Shown here: positions 41,383 to 46,872 of the stretch, in pieces
Layout: each line of letters starts with the position of its first letter
How positions within the stretch are numbered: the first letter of the stretch is position 1
From: Neolewinella xylanilytica
GTDB lineage: Bacteria > Bacteroidota > Bacteroidia > Chitinophagales > Saprospiraceae
DNA: 64,000 nt
Assembly: GCF_002934605.1 (NCBI RefSeq)
Contig: NZ_PTJC01000006.1
Location: forward strand, 124,001 to 188,000
Direction of reading: 5' to 3'
The notes under the pieces: generated by a model
Databases searched by the model: none
What the model was told of the DNA's origin: nothing
Seen by the model: the letters and a program-made list of their open reading frames with translations, nothing else
Program-made: the position numbers and the translations under genes

Positions 41383-41495
41383 TAGTACGGTAGTACAGTA
41401 GTCGTTTGCTGCGCAAACGGAGTAGTACGGTAATGTCCGCCCACCTACTGTACTACTCCGGCCGCGAAGCGGGCGACTACCGTAATACCGTACTA
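41383..41495. repeat. Nested palindromic repeat overlapping the hisB stop codon
   Basis: Outer arms TAGTACGGTAGTACAGTAGTC (41383-41403) and its near-complement (41475-41495) match at 19 of 21 positions; inside are GTTTGC-TGC-GCAAAC and GGAGTAGTAC..GTACTACTCC stems. The right arm includes the hisB stop codon. Words are shared with the repeat at 6139-6200. It may also act as the end of the his transcript, although no T-tract is seen. Confidence 0.75.
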
Positions 41496-42635
41496 CAATA
41501 CTCCCTTAGTGCTAGGTAGCCGCATGTTATCCACGTCCCGCCGCTTAGCCATTTTAATGCTTTTCGCCAGGGCCTTGAAGGTGGCTTCGATCTTGTGGTG
41601 CTCGTTATCGCCTTCGACTTTAATGTTGAGGTTACAGCGGGCGCCGTCGGTGAAGGATTTGAAGAAGTGGTAGAACATCTCGGTGGGCATGTCGCCAATC
41701 TTTTCGCGCTTGTATTCGCAGTCCCAGACGAGCCAGGGGCGGCCGCCGAAGTCGATGCCGACGCTGGCCAGGGCATCGTCCATGGGGAGGTAGAAGCCGT
41801 AGCGTTCGATGCCGAGCTTGTCGCCGAGGGCCTTGGCGAAGGCTTCCCCGAGGGCGATGGCGGTATCCTCGATGGTGTGGTGCTCGTCGATGTCGAGGTC
41901 GCCCTGCACCGTCACGGTCAGGTCGCAGCCCGAATGGCGACCGAGCTGGTCCAGCATATGGTCGAAGAAGCCCAGTCCGGTGTCGATGTCGGTCTGTCCG
42001 GTACCGTCCAGGTCGAGGTCGATGCGGATGTCGGTTTCCTTGGTGGTGCGCTGGACGCTGGCGGTGCGGCTCTGCAGGCGGAGGTAGCGGTAGATGTCTT
42101 CCCAGTCGGTGGTCCGCTTGACGATGACGTCGTCGAGATCCTTCAGTTGCTGCTGGCTCAGTTCCTCGTTACCCAGTTCCGGGTCGTTGGCCAGCCAGAA
42201 GCCGCGGGCCCCCATGTTCTTCGCGAGTTGCATATCGGTGAGCCGGTCCCCGACGACGAAGCTATTCGCGATGTCGTAAGCCTGGTCCTGCATGTACTTC
42301 TCCACAAGGCCGGTGTTCGGCTTGCGGGATGGGGCGTTGTCCTTGGCGTAGGTCCGGTCGATGAGTTCTTCCTCGAAGGTGATGCCCTCCGATGCCAGGG
42401 CGCGGACGACCAGTTCCTGGGCGGGCCAGAAGGTGTCTTCGGGGAACTCTTCCGTACCTAATCCGTCCTGATTGGTGATCATCACCAGTTTATAGTCCAG
42501 CTCCCGCGCGATGCGGCCCAGCCAGCGGAAGATGCCGGGGTAGAAATTGACCTTGGAGATATCGTCGACCTGGTAATTTTCGGGCTCTAGGATTAGGGTG
42601 CCGTCTCGGTCTAGTAGTAGTAGTTTTTTAGGCAT
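41493..42635 (-). CDS. hisB: Bifunctional histidinol-phosphatase / imidazoleglycerol-phosphate dehydratase
   Basis: 380 residues. Residues 1-~165 are a HAD phosphatase ([49 protein letters not shown]) for the histidinol-phosphate step. Residues ~190-380 are the IGP dehydratase with its manganese-binding repeats [15 protein letters not shown] and [16 protein letters not shown], and later [10 protein letters not shown] and [19 protein letters not shown]. The E. coli phosphatase domain has a zinc loop with three Cys; here the corresponding loop ([18 protein letters not shown]) has none. It is the last gene of the his operon; the stop codon lies inside a palindromic repeat. Confidence 0.96.
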
Positions 42636-42670: not shown

Positions 42671-42767
42671 TTCACCACAGAATGCACAGAGGGGTTCACA
42701 GAGGAATCACGGAGGCGTTTATTCTCTGTGATTCCTCTGCGAAGCCCTCCTTTACCTCTGTGGTGAA
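42671..42767. repeat. Long inverted repeat TTCACCACAG..CTGTGGTGAA between hisC and hisB
   Basis: The outer arms are perfect over 10 bases and the inner arms CACAGAGGAATCAC..GTGATTCCTCTG over 12 or more, giving a ~97-base imperfect hairpin. It overlaps the 3' end of hisC and supplies its last codons and stop. Elements with a TTCACCACAGAG core are common dispersed repeats in environmental bacteria; here the hairpin will be part of the his mRNA. Confidence 0.85.
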
Positions 42768-43828
42768 TTTAAAGCGCGAAGCGCCGAAATAAGAGCATCA
42801 TTCTCCGCCGGCAAACCAGCCGTAATCCGCAGGCAATTAGCCGCGTTCGGCTGGTAGCTCTGGTTGCGCACCACGATGCCCTCGTTCAGGAGATAGCGGT
42901 ACACCTTGTCGGAATCGGTGAAGCGAACCAGTAGAAAATTGGTGACCGACGGGAAGATATGGTCTACGATGTCGAGCTCGCCAAGTGCCTGTTCCAGCCG
43001 CTTCCGCTCGCTGACCAGCAGGTCGACCCGGTCGTGCATCCGTTGCGGGGCGGCGAGCGCCTCCAGGGCGGCGGCCTTGGTCAACACGTTGATGTTGTAC
43101 GGCATCTTGATGGTCCGCAGCAGGTCGACGATGAACTCGCTGGCGTAGGCGGCTCCGAGTCGGGCGCCGGCCATGCCCCATCCCTTCGAGAGGGTCTGGG
43201 TGATGATCAGGTTGGGGAATTCATCCAGCCGGGGTACGAAGCTCGCCTCCGGAACGAAGTCGATGTAGGCCTCGTCCAGCACCACGATACCGGGAAAGCT
43301 GCGGATCAGATCTTCCACCACCGCCGCATCCATCAGGTTGCCGCTCGGATTGTTGGGGCTACAGAGCCAGAGAATCTTCGACGCATCGTCCCAGGTCTCC
43401 TTCAGCGCATCGACCGGGATGGTGAAGTCCGGCTGCAGCGTGACCGCCCGGAACTCCGCATCGTTAATGCCGGCGGCGACCTTGTACATACCGAAGGTCG
43501 GGGGCAGGGCATGGACCGCATCCACTCCCGGCCGGCAGAATACCCGGGTGATCTGGTCGACGATCTCGTCGGAGCCGTTGCCGATGAAGATCTTATCCGC
43601 GTGTACCCCGCGCATGGCGGCGAATAGATTGCGAATGTCGGTCGAAAGCGGTTCCGGGTAGCGGTTCATGCCATTATCGAAGGGGCTTTCGTTGGCATCC
43701 AGGAGCACGTCGGCCCGCCCCTGGAATTCCGAGCGGGCGCTGGAGTAGGGGGTGACGTTCAGGATGTTGGGGCGCACGAGGCCGCGGATTGCTTCCGCGG
43801 TCCATTGTATGTAGTCGGTGGTGGTCAT
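42752..43828 (-). CDS. hisC: Histidinol-phosphate aminotransferase
   Basis: 358 residues from ATG 43828; a GTG two codons upstream is possible. Class I/II PLP fold: LDANESPFDNGMNRYPEP, FIGNGSDEIVDQITRVF, LCSPNNPSGNLMD, VVLDEAYIDFV, PLP Lys in TQTLSKGWGMAGARLGAA, and the C-terminal NCLRITAGLPAENDALISAL. It converts imidazole-acetol phosphate and glutamate to histidinol phosphate. The last residues (Asn-Ser-Pro-Gln-Arg) and the stop codon are read from an inverted repeat, so the native end may have been replaced. It follows the GyrI-like gene by 75 bases. Confidence 0.96.
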   Translation of the reverse strand: MTTTDYIQWTAEAIRGLVRPNILNVTPYSSARSEFQGRADVLLDANESPFDNGMNRYPEPLSTDIRNLFAAMRGVHADKIFIGNGSDEIVDQITRVFCRPGVDAVHALPPTFGMYKVAAGINDAEFRAVTLQPDFTIPVDALKETWDDASKILWLCSPNNPSGNLMDAAVVEDLIRSFPGIVVLDEAYIDFVPEASFVPRLDEFPNLIITQTLSKGWGMAGARLGAAYASEFIVDLLRTIKMPYNINVLTKAAALEALAAPQRMHDRVDLLVSERKRLEQALGELDIVDHIFPSVTNFLLVRFTDSDKVYRYLLNEGIVVRNQSYQPNAANCLRITAGLPAENDALISALRALNSPQR

Positions 43829-43903
43829 AAACACGGGGAAAATTTCAATCTCGATGGGCGGCGATGCTGCTTACGCCGACTTGAAGTAAGGGAGGTAGGC
43901 CGA

Positions 43904-44429: not shown

Positions 44430-45710
44430 TTACAAATCCTGCAACCGCAAACGTACCGCGTTCCGGTGAGCTTGTAGGTGCTCGGCCTCGGCCATCAGCT
44501 CAACCGTAGGGCCGATGTTGCGGAGGCCATCGGGCGTCAGTTCCTGGAAGGTGATTTTCTTGACGAAGCTATCCAGGCTCACGCCGCTGTACTGGCGAGC
44601 GTAACCGTAGGTTGGCAGGGTGTGGTTGGTCCCACTCGCGTAATCGCCCACGCTTTCGGGGGTATGGTAACCGAGGAAGACCGAACCCGCGTTACGAACC
44701 CCCGCGGCGAACTCCCGGGCGTTCTCCATGCAGAGAATGAGGTGCTCGGGGGCGTAAGCATTGACGTATTCCACGGCATCTCCCCAGTTCGGAAAGATCA
44801 GGGCCAAGCTGTTGTCGATACTTTCGGAGGCCAGAGCCTCCCGTGGGAGTTCGGCCAGTTGGCGCATAACTTCTTCCCGGATCGCCACCGCTTTCGCTTT
44901 CGTGTCGGTAATCAGCACCACCTGGCTGTCGTGGCCGTGTTCGGCTTGGCTGAGCAGGTCGGCGGCCACGTGACTGTTCGTTGCTCCTGCGTCCGCGCAA
45001 ACCAGCACTTCGCTCGGTCCGGCCGGCATGTCGATGGACAGGCCCTCCAACGAGGCAAGTTGCTTGGCGACGGTTACATAGGCATTCCCCGGTCCGAAAA
45101 TCTTGTAAACTTTCGGTACCGTTTCCGTTCCGTAGGTCATGGCGGCAATGGCCTGAGAACCCCCAATCCGGAAGATCTTCGTTACCCCGCATAGTTCAGC
45201 CGTATAGAGGATGGCCGGGTGAATGACGCCGTTTGCATTAGGCGGCGAGCAGAGGATGATTTCCTTGCAACCCGCCAGTGCCGCCGGTACCGCCAGCATG
45301 AGCACCGTGCTAAAGAGCGGGGCGGTGCCACCGGGTATGTACAGCCCCACCCGGTCGATGCCGCGGCTCTCCCGCCAGCAACGGACCCCGGGCATGGTTT
45401 CGATCTCTTCTACTGGCACCGCTTGTTTCCGGTGAAAGGTTTCGATATTTTGCTTGGCCGTCTGGATGGCTTCCCGCAATGCGACGGGCAGGCGGGCCTT
45501 TGCCGCGGCGATCATCCGCGGCGTTACGGCGAAGTCGTCCAGCTCCACGCCGTCGAAGCGGGCGGTGTAATCGCGCAGGGCGGCGTCGCCCTCGTCCCGC
45601 ACCCGGTCCATCACCGTGCGGACGGTCTGATCCAGGTTGGTCAGGTCGTTGGCGGGGCGCTGGCACAGTGCCTTCCAGCGTTCGCGATCGGGATTCTCGT
45701 ATACCTTCAT
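44430..45710 (-). CDS. hisD: Histidinol dehydrogenase
   Basis: 426 residues from ATG 45710; a GTG directly upstream is an alternative. Hallmarks: VGLYIPGGTAPLFSTVLM, FGPGNAYVTVAKQ, SIDMPAGPSEVLV, LLSQAEHGHDSQ, NAYAPEHL and VFLGYHTPESVGDYASGTNH with the catalytic Glu and His. It oxidises histidinol in two NAD-dependent steps to histidine, zinc-dependent. The start overlaps the hisG stop codon (TGATG), indicating translational coupling. Length and sequence are normal for the family. Confidence 0.97.
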   Translation of the reverse strand: MKVYENPDRERWKALCQRPANDLTNLDQTVRTVMDRVRDEGDAALRDYTARFDGVELDDFAVTPRMIAAAKARLPVALREAIQTAKQNIETFHRKQAVPVEEIETMPGVRCWRESRGIDRVGLYIPGGTAPLFSTVLMLAVPAALAGCKEIILCSPPNANGVIHPAILYTAELCGVTKIFRIGGSQAIAAMTYGTETVPKVYKIFGPGNAYVTVAKQLASLEGLSIDMPAGPSEVLVCADAGATNSHVAADLLSQAEHGHDSQVVLITDTKAKAVAIREEVMRQLAELPREALASESIDNSLALIFPNWGDAVEYVNAYAPEHLILCMENAREFAAGVRNAGSVFLGYHTPESVGDYASGTNHTLPTYGYARQYSGVSLDSFVKKITFQELTPDGLRNIGPTVELMAEAEHLQAHRNAVRLRLQDL

Positions 45711-46573
45711 CACATGATCATTTTAGCAATCGGCACGATAAGGATGCCCTCCGCACCCGCGTCCCGTAGTCGGTCGATAATGTCCCAGAATCGATCTTCG
45801 CTAATGACGGTATGCACGCTCGACCAACCCTTTTCTGCAAGTGGCAGTACGGTAGGGGAACGCATGCCCGGTAGCATCTTCGTTACTTCCTCGATGCTGT
45901 GATTCGGGACGTTCATAAGCAGGTACTTCTGGTTGCGGGCCGCCAGGACGGACTTCACGCGAAATACCAGCTTGTCCAGGATCTCCCGGCGCGCGGCGTC
46001 GATCCGCGGACTGGCGGCAATGACCGCCTCCGACTGTAGGATCACGTCCTGCTCCTCCAGTCCGTTTTTGAACAGGGTGCTGCCGGTAGAAACCAGATCG
46101 CAGATGGCGTCGGCCAGCCCGATATTCGGGGCGATCTCCACCGAGCCGCTGATTTCGTGGATCTCGGCGTCGATGTTCTTTTCGTCGAGAAAGGCCTGCA
46201 GGCTATTCGGGTAGCTGGTGGCGATGCGACGGCCCTGCAAGTACTCCGGTCCCGTATAGTCGACCCCCCGGGGGGTGGCCAGGCTCAGGCGGCATTTGCT
46301 GAAACCGAGCTTCTGCACCACTTCTGCTTCCTTCCGCTTCTCGATCAGGGTGTTTTCGCCGATGATGCCGATGTCGGCCACCCCGTCCTGGATGTACTGC
46401 GGGATATCGCTGTTGCGCAGGTAAAGGACCTCGGCGTTGAAGTTGCGAGCGGGTGCCTTTAGCTGGTCGCGTCCGTTGTCGATCTTGATGCCGCATTCCT
46501 TTAGGAGGTCGATCGATTCGTCGAGCAGGCGGCCTGATTTCTGAACGGCAATCCGTAGTGGGGGTGTCTTCAT
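45710..46573 (-). CDS. hisG: ATP phosphoribosyltransferase, long form
   Basis: 287 residues. Start PLRIAVQKSGRLLDESIDLL, substrate part VADIGIIGENTLIEKR and PNIGLADAICDLVSTGSTL, and the C-terminal ACT-like regulatory domain (KYLLMNVPNHSIEEVTKMLPG to the end) identify the homohexameric HisG-long enzyme, feedback-inhibited by histidine through that domain. It catalyses the first step of histidine synthesis. First structural gene of the operon; its ATG is 23 bases after the leader terminator stem. hisH, hisA, hisF, hisI and hisE are not in the window. Confidence 0.97.
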   Translation of the reverse strand: MKTPPLRIAVQKSGRLLDESIDLLKECGIKIDNGRDQLKAPARNFNAEVLYLRNSDIPQYIQDGVADIGIIGENTLIEKRKEAEVVQKLGFSKCRLSLATPRGVDYTGPEYLQGRRIATSYPNSLQAFLDEKNIDAEIHEISGSVEIAPNIGLADAICDLVSTGSTLFKNGLEEQDVILQSEAVIAASPRIDAARREILDKLVFRVKSVLAARNQKYLLMNVPNHSIEEVTKMLPGMRSPTVLPLAEKGWSSVHTVISEDRFWDIIDRLRDAGAEGILIVPIAKMIM

Positions 46574-46582
46574 GATGGGAAA

Positions 46583-46628
46583 GCGATAAAACGCAAAGAG
46601 GCCCGCCGGTTATTTCCGGCGGACCTCT
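46583..46628 (-). terminator. his attenuator terminator
   Basis: On the minus strand AGAGG-U-CCGCCGG pairs with CCGGCGG-G-CCUCU (13 bp including one U-G, loop AAATAA; plus-strand 46597-46628), followed by the T-rich run TTTGCGTTTT. It lies between the His-rich leader peptide and hisG, where an attenuator terminator is expected. A shorter hairpin CTCGCC..GGCGAG (46675-46691) over the end of the leader frame would be the pause/competitor stem. An antiterminator pairing was not proven by folding. Confidence 0.82.
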
Positions 46629-46668
46629 GAGCAATAGGTTTGTTGATGGTAAAGTTTAGCGTACCGGC

Positions 46669-46728
46669 CTACCGCTCGCCGACGGGGCGAGAAAAGACGA
46701 TATGATGATGGTGAACGCTAAGAATCAT
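46669..46728 (-). CDS. hisL: his operon leader peptide with four consecutive His codons
   Basis: A 19-residue frame reads MILSVHHHHIVFSRPVGER and stops with TAG. The four histidines (codons CAC CAT CAT CAT) are in the position expected for ribosome stalling when charged tRNA-His is scarce, as in the known E. coli/Salmonella hisL. The downstream terminator before hisG and the hairpin over the end of the frame complete the classical arrangement. The start codon lies one base after the discriminator base of the tRNA-Phe gene, so there is no room for a ribosome-binding site; translation would have to begin on a processed, almost leaderless RNA or within the joint transcript. Too short for ordinary gene finding. 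Confidence 0.85.
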   Translation of the reverse strand: MILSVHHHHIVFSRPVGER

Positions 46729-46729
46729 G

Positions 46730-46802
46730 TGGTGTGGGGCGGAATCGAACCGCCGACACATGGATTTTCAGTCCATTGCTCTACCAACTGAGCTACCGCA
46801 CC
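46730..46802 (-). tRNA. tRNA-Phe (anticodon GAA)
   Basis: The minus strand folds as a cloverleaf: acceptor GGTGCGG, T8-A9, D-stem GCTC..GAGC, anticodon stem ATGGA with loop CTGAAAA (GAA), T-stem GGCGG with TTCGATT, acceptor 3' strand CCACACC and discriminator A. CCA is not encoded. One acceptor pair (5-68) is C opposite A. A TTG-N21-TACCTTTG promoter lies about 40 bases upstream, and hisL begins directly behind. Confidence 0.93.
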
Positions 46803-46840
46803 ATTTGCCGTTTGCCGGGCGTTCCCGGTTTAAGCGGATG

Positions 46841-46872
46841 CAAAGGTAGGTATAAACGAACTAACCTTGCAA
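46841..46872 (-). promoter_or_regulatory. Promoter of the tRNA-Phe / his operon transcript
   Basis: On the minus strand TTG (46870-46872), a 21-base spacer and TACCTTTG (46841-46848). The tRNA 5' end is 38 bases downstream of the box. No second promoter was found between the tRNA and hisG, because hisL begins one base after the tRNA. Confidence 0.75.

Follow-up and report, generated by a model that had tools for sequence, protein, structure and literature searches.

The his operon of Neolewinella xylanilytica is preceded, on the minus strand of the 64,000-nucleotide stretch of DNA analysed here (the window), by a tRNA-Phe gene and a short histidine-rich reading frame. In the direction of transcription, the locus comprises the following features:

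46841-46872, minus strand: Bacteroidota-type promoter TTG-N21-TACCTTTG, read from the sequence (TTG at 46872-46870, 21 bases, TACCTTTG at 46848-46841)
46815-46828, minus strand: small hairpin CCGGG-AACG-CCCGG in the interval between promoter and tRNA, read from the sequence
46730-46802, minus strand: tRNA-Phe(GAA), CCA not encoded (Rfam tRNA, 72.1 bits; ARAGORN gives 46729-46802)
46669-46728, minus strand: his leader peptide MILSVHHHHIVFSRPVGER, 19 codons plus the stop TAG (46671-46669), from the sequence and homologous leaders
46702-46713, minus strand: the four His codons CAC CAT CAT CAT of the leader, read from the sequence
46675-46691, minus strand: leader hairpin (segments 1:2), CTCGCC / GGCGAG over the leader end, from the sequence and the Neolewinella alignment
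46597-46628, minus strand: intrinsic terminator (segments 3:4), 13-bp stem 46628-46616 / 46609-46597 with a T-rich tail, from the sequence and covariation
45710-46573, minus strand: hisG, ATG at 46573 (Pfam PF01634, PF08029)
44430-45713, minus strand: hisD, histidinol dehydrogenase (Pfam PF00815)
42752-43834, minus strand: class I/II aminotransferase, hisC by position (Pfam PF00155)
41493-42635, minus strand: hisB, HAD and IGPD domains (Pfam PF00475, PF13419)

The leader ATG (46728) is separated from the tRNA discriminator by a single base, C46729, and 23 bases lie between the terminator stem and the hisG ATG. Promoter, tRNA-Phe, leader, hairpin, terminator and hisG can all be read directly where an earlier sequence-only reading of this DNA had placed them. 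The promoter itself stands as proposed there, whereas the transcription start, given as 46835, moves to a predicted position of about 46836 once the -7 box is placed at -12 to -5, as in PMC9723704. The Rfam his leader has no match here at gathering score, the tRNA being the sole Rfam match in the window. The operon also encodes, between hisD and hisC, a ligand-binding protein of the GyrI-like type (PF06445, 43904-44404).

The genome contains 39 tRNA matches, 38 of which are named as tRNA genes by ARAGORN, and tRNA-Phe(GAA) is present in a single copy among these 38. The same holds across the genus, where full-length copies at 97% identity or more are found once per genome, beside hisG, in 21 of 21 genomes. 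Inspection by eye of the 38 named genes indicates that only tRNA-Phe abuts a leader frame at its 3' end; behind many others comes a hairpin with a T run or another tRNA gene. At tRNA-Leu(GAG) of this genome (L338, 216-351), a terminator-like hairpin behind the tRNA is followed by TACCTTTG ending four bases before an ATG, and the open frame starting there is predicted to be a leaderless protein gene. The AACG-loop hairpin upstream of tRNA-Phe (46828-46815) is seen by eye at the same place in L005-L009, L011, L012 and L014; its stems are changed yet paired in L011, L014 and L015, and it is absent in L010 and L013, as is the His leader. Another peculiarity is a C5.A68 mismatch in the acceptor stem of tRNA-Phe, noted by eye in all 20 Neolewinella tRNAs inspected out of 21, some of which also have a changed neighbouring pair, and in identical tRNAs from other genera. 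A role of this mismatch as a switch component was considered and rejected because no tRNA is found upstream of hisG in G109 and G163, which carry identical tRNAs.

Conservation was assessed on the stretches upstream of 110 hisG loci from relatives, consisting of 30 of the 34 matches of a first search and 80 of 85 further genomes (G080, G117, G148, G150 and G177 being left out of the latter). With a His leader defined as a frame from ATG with at least three His within six residues, such a leader precedes hisG in at least 97 of the 110 loci. This is a lower bound because, among the 13 loci lacking a rule-defined leader (L010, L013, L163, L175, L188, L197, L204, L213, L214, L217, L222, L228 and L232), the readable sequence is too short in L163, L204 and L222, and L188 (from TTG), L197, L217 and L228 carry, by eye, His-codon frames that escape the rule. 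In at least 49 of the 110 loci, representing 24 genus codes, hisG has a tRNA-Phe gene upstream in the same orientation (48 loci from 560 bases upstream, plus L172 after a longer stretch), and no tRNA of another kind turned up there in any of the 110. On a quick hisG tree covering 90 of these loci, with L172 still labelled as tRNA-less, the tRNA label needs 9 changes versus 30.1 when shuffled, none of 500 shuffles being as low, while the well-supported branches alone force at least four changes. So few changes point to an old link between tRNA and hisG that is clustered within a part of the family and has been gained or lost several times.

Beyond the family (code f1, which we take to be Saprospiraceae or Lewinellaceae), 44 loci remain from a set of 48 after removal of the four belonging to f1; a His leader is found in 35 of them, and a tRNA upstream of hisG in none. 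Five loci from other families of the same order (L031-L033, L295 and L296) are likewise without a tRNA upstream. Closer to the window, records of N. aquimaris and N. marina (L069, L072) display the same arrangement with identical leader letters. A search of genome contigs for a tRNA T arm followed by four His codons returned at least 118 stretches; among the matches listed (80 loci scripted), 31 have a forward tRNA call, and among those 31 a plausible his leader was recognized by eye in L060, L069, L072 and L077, in each case behind tRNA-Phe. The arrangement is a lineage trait, and chance does not account for it, given the frequency of the His leader and of tRNA-Phe among the 110 loci and the compensatory changes in the terminator stem described below.

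The spacing between tRNA and leader distinguishes two states. In the 45 linked loci with a leader, the distance from the tRNA end called by ARAGORN to the ATG is at most 26 nt in 27 (seven at 0 and twenty at 11-26 nt, from 16 genus codes) and 50-224 nt in the other 18. All 27 tight loci carry TANNTTTG within 80 nt before the tRNA, against a shuffled background of 2.7% per locus, whereas none of them, the window included, carries it between the tRNA start and the ATG, the search being confined to the sigma-A consensus. In the eight Neolewinella genomes with a gap of 0 or 11 nt, the box stands 35-42 nt before the tRNA. As far as this consensus goes, the claim that no promoter fits between tRNA and leader is borne out, and the operon is probably read as a tRNA-mRNA, as had been proposed. 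In this fused state, the attenuator appears to be the only terminator behind the tRNA.

The wide-gap loci differ. A box precedes the tRNA in 8 of the 18 and is lacking within 80 nt in the other 10, while TANNTTTG lies between tRNA and ATG in two (L155 and L176). The gap itself contains a terminator-like hairpin with some T in 16 of the 18, although a few of these are poor. The tRNA of this group is apparently insulated by a terminator of its own, and tight coupling is therefore not universal. In L216 (G071), a his-type terminator hairpin separates tRNA-Phe from the His leader, behind which another one follows.

Leaders without a tRNA offer a further comparison, since 35 of 51 such loci carry a box in the 60 nt that precede the leader ATG, from which it is 4 to 46 nt away (background 4.1%). 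When the box is placed at -12 to -5, as in PMC9723704, no more than six untranslated bases are predicted for 12 of these 35 leaders and none at all for four. The same source gives a median untranslated leader of 24 for Flavobacterium psychrophilum and 5.5% of its mRNAs as leaderless. Very short or missing untranslated stretches thus seem frequent at the his leaders of this group and lend credibility to a leader mRNA that begins where a tRNA ends.

The closest apposition, in which the tRNA is followed by AC-ATG, was seen only in L005-L009, L011 and L012, all seven of them Neolewinella genomes, and probably goes back to one shared event; the other Neolewinella gaps amount to 11 nt in L014 and to 50-224 nt in eleven more. 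Two close relatives, L010 and L013, have lost the His leader and kept the tRNA, the terminator and hisG, with a box-to-tRNA distance of 10 nt versus 35-42 nt. An alignment of relatives, proposed by the sequence-only reading as a check, consequently gives a divided answer: tRNA-Phe and His leader are kept together in many genera, but the very loss of His codons beside an intact tRNA-hisG neighbourhood that the reading had named as evidence against itself occurs in these two genomes, and a locus of another genus (L217) has two His codons only. In L007 and L008, a one-base deletion alters the end of the peptide and leaves the hairpin intact, as expected if the RNA and the His codons matter and the remaining peptide does not.

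The surroundings of tRNA-Phe were also read in nine genomes lacking a hisG match (G069, G078, G098, G099, G103, G123, G147, G162 and G174). No his leader was found behind tRNA-Phe in eight of the nine, G103 contributing 105 readable bases, and this counts in favour of the explanation preferred below. The frame flagged by script in G174 begins inside the tRNA, which supplies its His codons, and a his-type terminator remains, by eye, behind tRNA-Phe in G069 and G174. The ninth genome, G162 (L307), has tRNA, leader and terminator, yet no hisG in about 660 bases behind the tRNA; the case, in a genome that is 80% complete, either tells against strict coupling or is the trace of a recent loss.

Each of the 97 leaders is followed by a hairpin and a T-rich tail, the hairpin energies ranging from -4.6 to -32.4, taken without a shuffled control. 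Among 18 Neolewinella sequences, 95.3% of the terminator cells are paired and three pairs are changed on both sides. Taken together, terminator and leader hairpin reach a covariation score of 0.172 versus 0.130 in shuffled alignments (0 of 500 as high), although the mere count of three pairs changed on both sides is reached in 163 of 500 shuffles. The leader hairpin is paired in all cells with letters, but it gives little covariation evidence because five of its six pairs never vary.

The folding of an antiterminator, another check put forward by the sequence-only reading, yields a mixed picture. In Neolewinella, the helix that joins the GGCGAGC region of the leader to the terminator's 5' arm has 98.6% of its cells paired and displays no compensatory change. 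Compared with shuffled versions of segment 2, the simple antiterminator energy reaches p <=0.05 in 20 of 97 loci, with a median z of -0.86. A partner-swap test was run on 91 loci, six of the 97 rows having been dropped beforehand for a weak hairpin or a doubtful leader choice (L033, L172, L183, L223, L227 and L229). Segment 2 prefers its own terminator arm in this set (0 of 5000 permutations as low), as well as in the 26 tRNA-linked loci outside Neolewinella (8 of 5000), whereas this preference is absent within the 19 Neolewinella loci (4358 of 5000). When the RNA of the window is folded with the leader masked, the minimum is still the terminator, so that antitermination, if any, would be kinetic.

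These features, which are real and conserved, are best read as a his attenuation that ends the tRNA-Phe transcript, and co-transcription with tRNA-Phe combined with his attenuation is considered highly probable. The his operon would then be expressed by regulated read-through from the transcription unit of tRNA-Phe. The polymerase, starting at about 46836, would make the tRNA, and the terminator behind it would act as a classical ribosome-mediated his attenuator. With ample His-tRNA, the ribosome would complete the leader, the 3:4 terminator would form and tRNA-Phe alone would be made. With scarce His-tRNA, the ribosome would stall on the four His codons and cover CTCGCC; GGCGAGCGG, released in this way, would compete with the terminator for its 5' arm, and the polymerase would continue into hisGDCB. 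The sequence-only reading had also suggested that tRNA-Phe supply is coupled to histidine starvation; this part finds no support because the regulated terminator sits downstream of the tRNA. The single tRNA-Phe would have to be made whatever the histidine supply, and the dependence would be one-sided, of the his genes on the promoter of the tRNA.

Maturation of the tRNA could add a further layer. As CCA is not encoded, RNase Z is, by analogy with Bacillus subtilis, the expected 3' enzyme, and its cut after A46730 would leave a leader mRNA starting with C-AUG, hence near leaderless. An RNase Z match is encoded in the genome (E 1.3e-80), its score of 271.5 bits falling short of the curated cut-off of 292.95. 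According to PMC10100781, a U no more than two bases from the discriminator stimulates RNase Z of B. subtilis about 200-fold, whereas the first U at this locus is the third base behind it, so that the cut may be slow here. That it nevertheless produces a working leader mRNA is given an even chance. A more tentative proposal, to which the balance of probability is unfavourable, is that tRNA maturation licenses the attenuator, the RNase Z cut of tRNA-Phe creating the 5' end of the near-leaderless leader mRNA. If so, his expression would report both histidine supply and tRNA-processing capacity, under a stable-RNA promoter.

The most serious alternative retains co-transcription and regards it as an incidental capture of a promoter, with a leader that works in any transcript and tRNA processing that plays no regulatory part. 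This is a narrower version of the best explanation, the probabilities of the two overlap, and it falls just short of an even chance. It is favoured by the tRNA-less His leaders, which are common inside and outside the family and mostly carry their own box, and by the twenty tight loci with a gap of 11-26 nt, where the 79% A+T gap resembles an ordinary untranslated leader. It fits less well with the seven zero-gap genomes: with the end of the tRNA two bases ahead of the AUG, a 30S subunit could hardly load unless the tRNA is cut or unfolded. Dispensing with co-transcription altogether, leader and hisG could have their own promoter, located within the tRNA gene or shortly after it. The wide-gap loci lend themselves to this idea through the boxes of L155 and L176, the missing upstream boxes of ten others and the gap hairpins suggestive of insulation, but the sigma-A consensus is found between tRNA start and ATG in none of the 27 tight loci, and the idea is judged improbable.

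Two other explanations concern the leader itself and carry very little weight. Translation might start not at 46728 but at an in-frame AUG inside the tRNA (MCRRFDSAPHHMILSVHHHH...), from which the frame is open in L014 and in all seven loci without a gap. However, the zero-gap loci probably count as one event, the AUG lies within the folded tRNA, and it is in register and open in only 3 of the 22 larger-gap loci that carry it, a register test on which this start was rejected. Just as implausible is a hairpin serving as a plain tRNA terminator, with His codons that are due to chance or are relics; L010, L013, G069 and G174 do look so, but in the 97 loci with a His-rich leader each leader is followed by a hairpin and a T-rich tail.

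If the preferred reading of a his attenuator ending the tRNA-Phe transcript is true, a tRNA gene has a terminator of its own that senses an amino acid, and regulated read-through of that gene expresses a biosynthetic operon, an arrangement kept in many genera. The loci form a natural series, with no tRNA, a gap of 11-26 nt, no gap, insulation or loss of the leader, which suits the testing of the interplay between tRNA processing, near-leaderless initiation and attenuation in a phylum without Shine-Dalgarno sites.

The enterobacterial his operon is controlled by the hisL attenuator, represented in Rfam by the his leader. Both systems share a leader peptide containing consecutive His codons and an intrinsic terminator just before hisG, and competing hairpins would be a further common feature, whereas the locus described here lacks an Rfam match at gathering score, has a Bacteroidota promoter and would give a transcript starting with a tRNA. 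Bacterial operons joining tRNA and mRNA include tyrT-tpr, thrU-tufB and metY-nusA of Escherichia coli, in which a protein message is likewise co-transcribed with a tRNA. To our knowledge, the junction is not an amino-acid attenuator in any of these three, and none of them has a frame that starts a single base after the tRNA. Within the same phylum, structured 5' elements upstream of hisG and of other amino-acid genes are described in F. psychrophilum (PMC9723704), where leader-peptide attenuation is also suspected at amino-acid operons; unlike in the window, no upstream tRNA gene is mentioned in the available part of that article. Among the papers found in a search of the open literature, none describes, as judged from titles, openings of abstracts and passages, an amino-acid attenuator behind a tRNA gene. 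Compared with these systems, the mechanism proposed here would be an already known one in a new setting, and the near-leaderless leader made by RNase Z would be its bold part.
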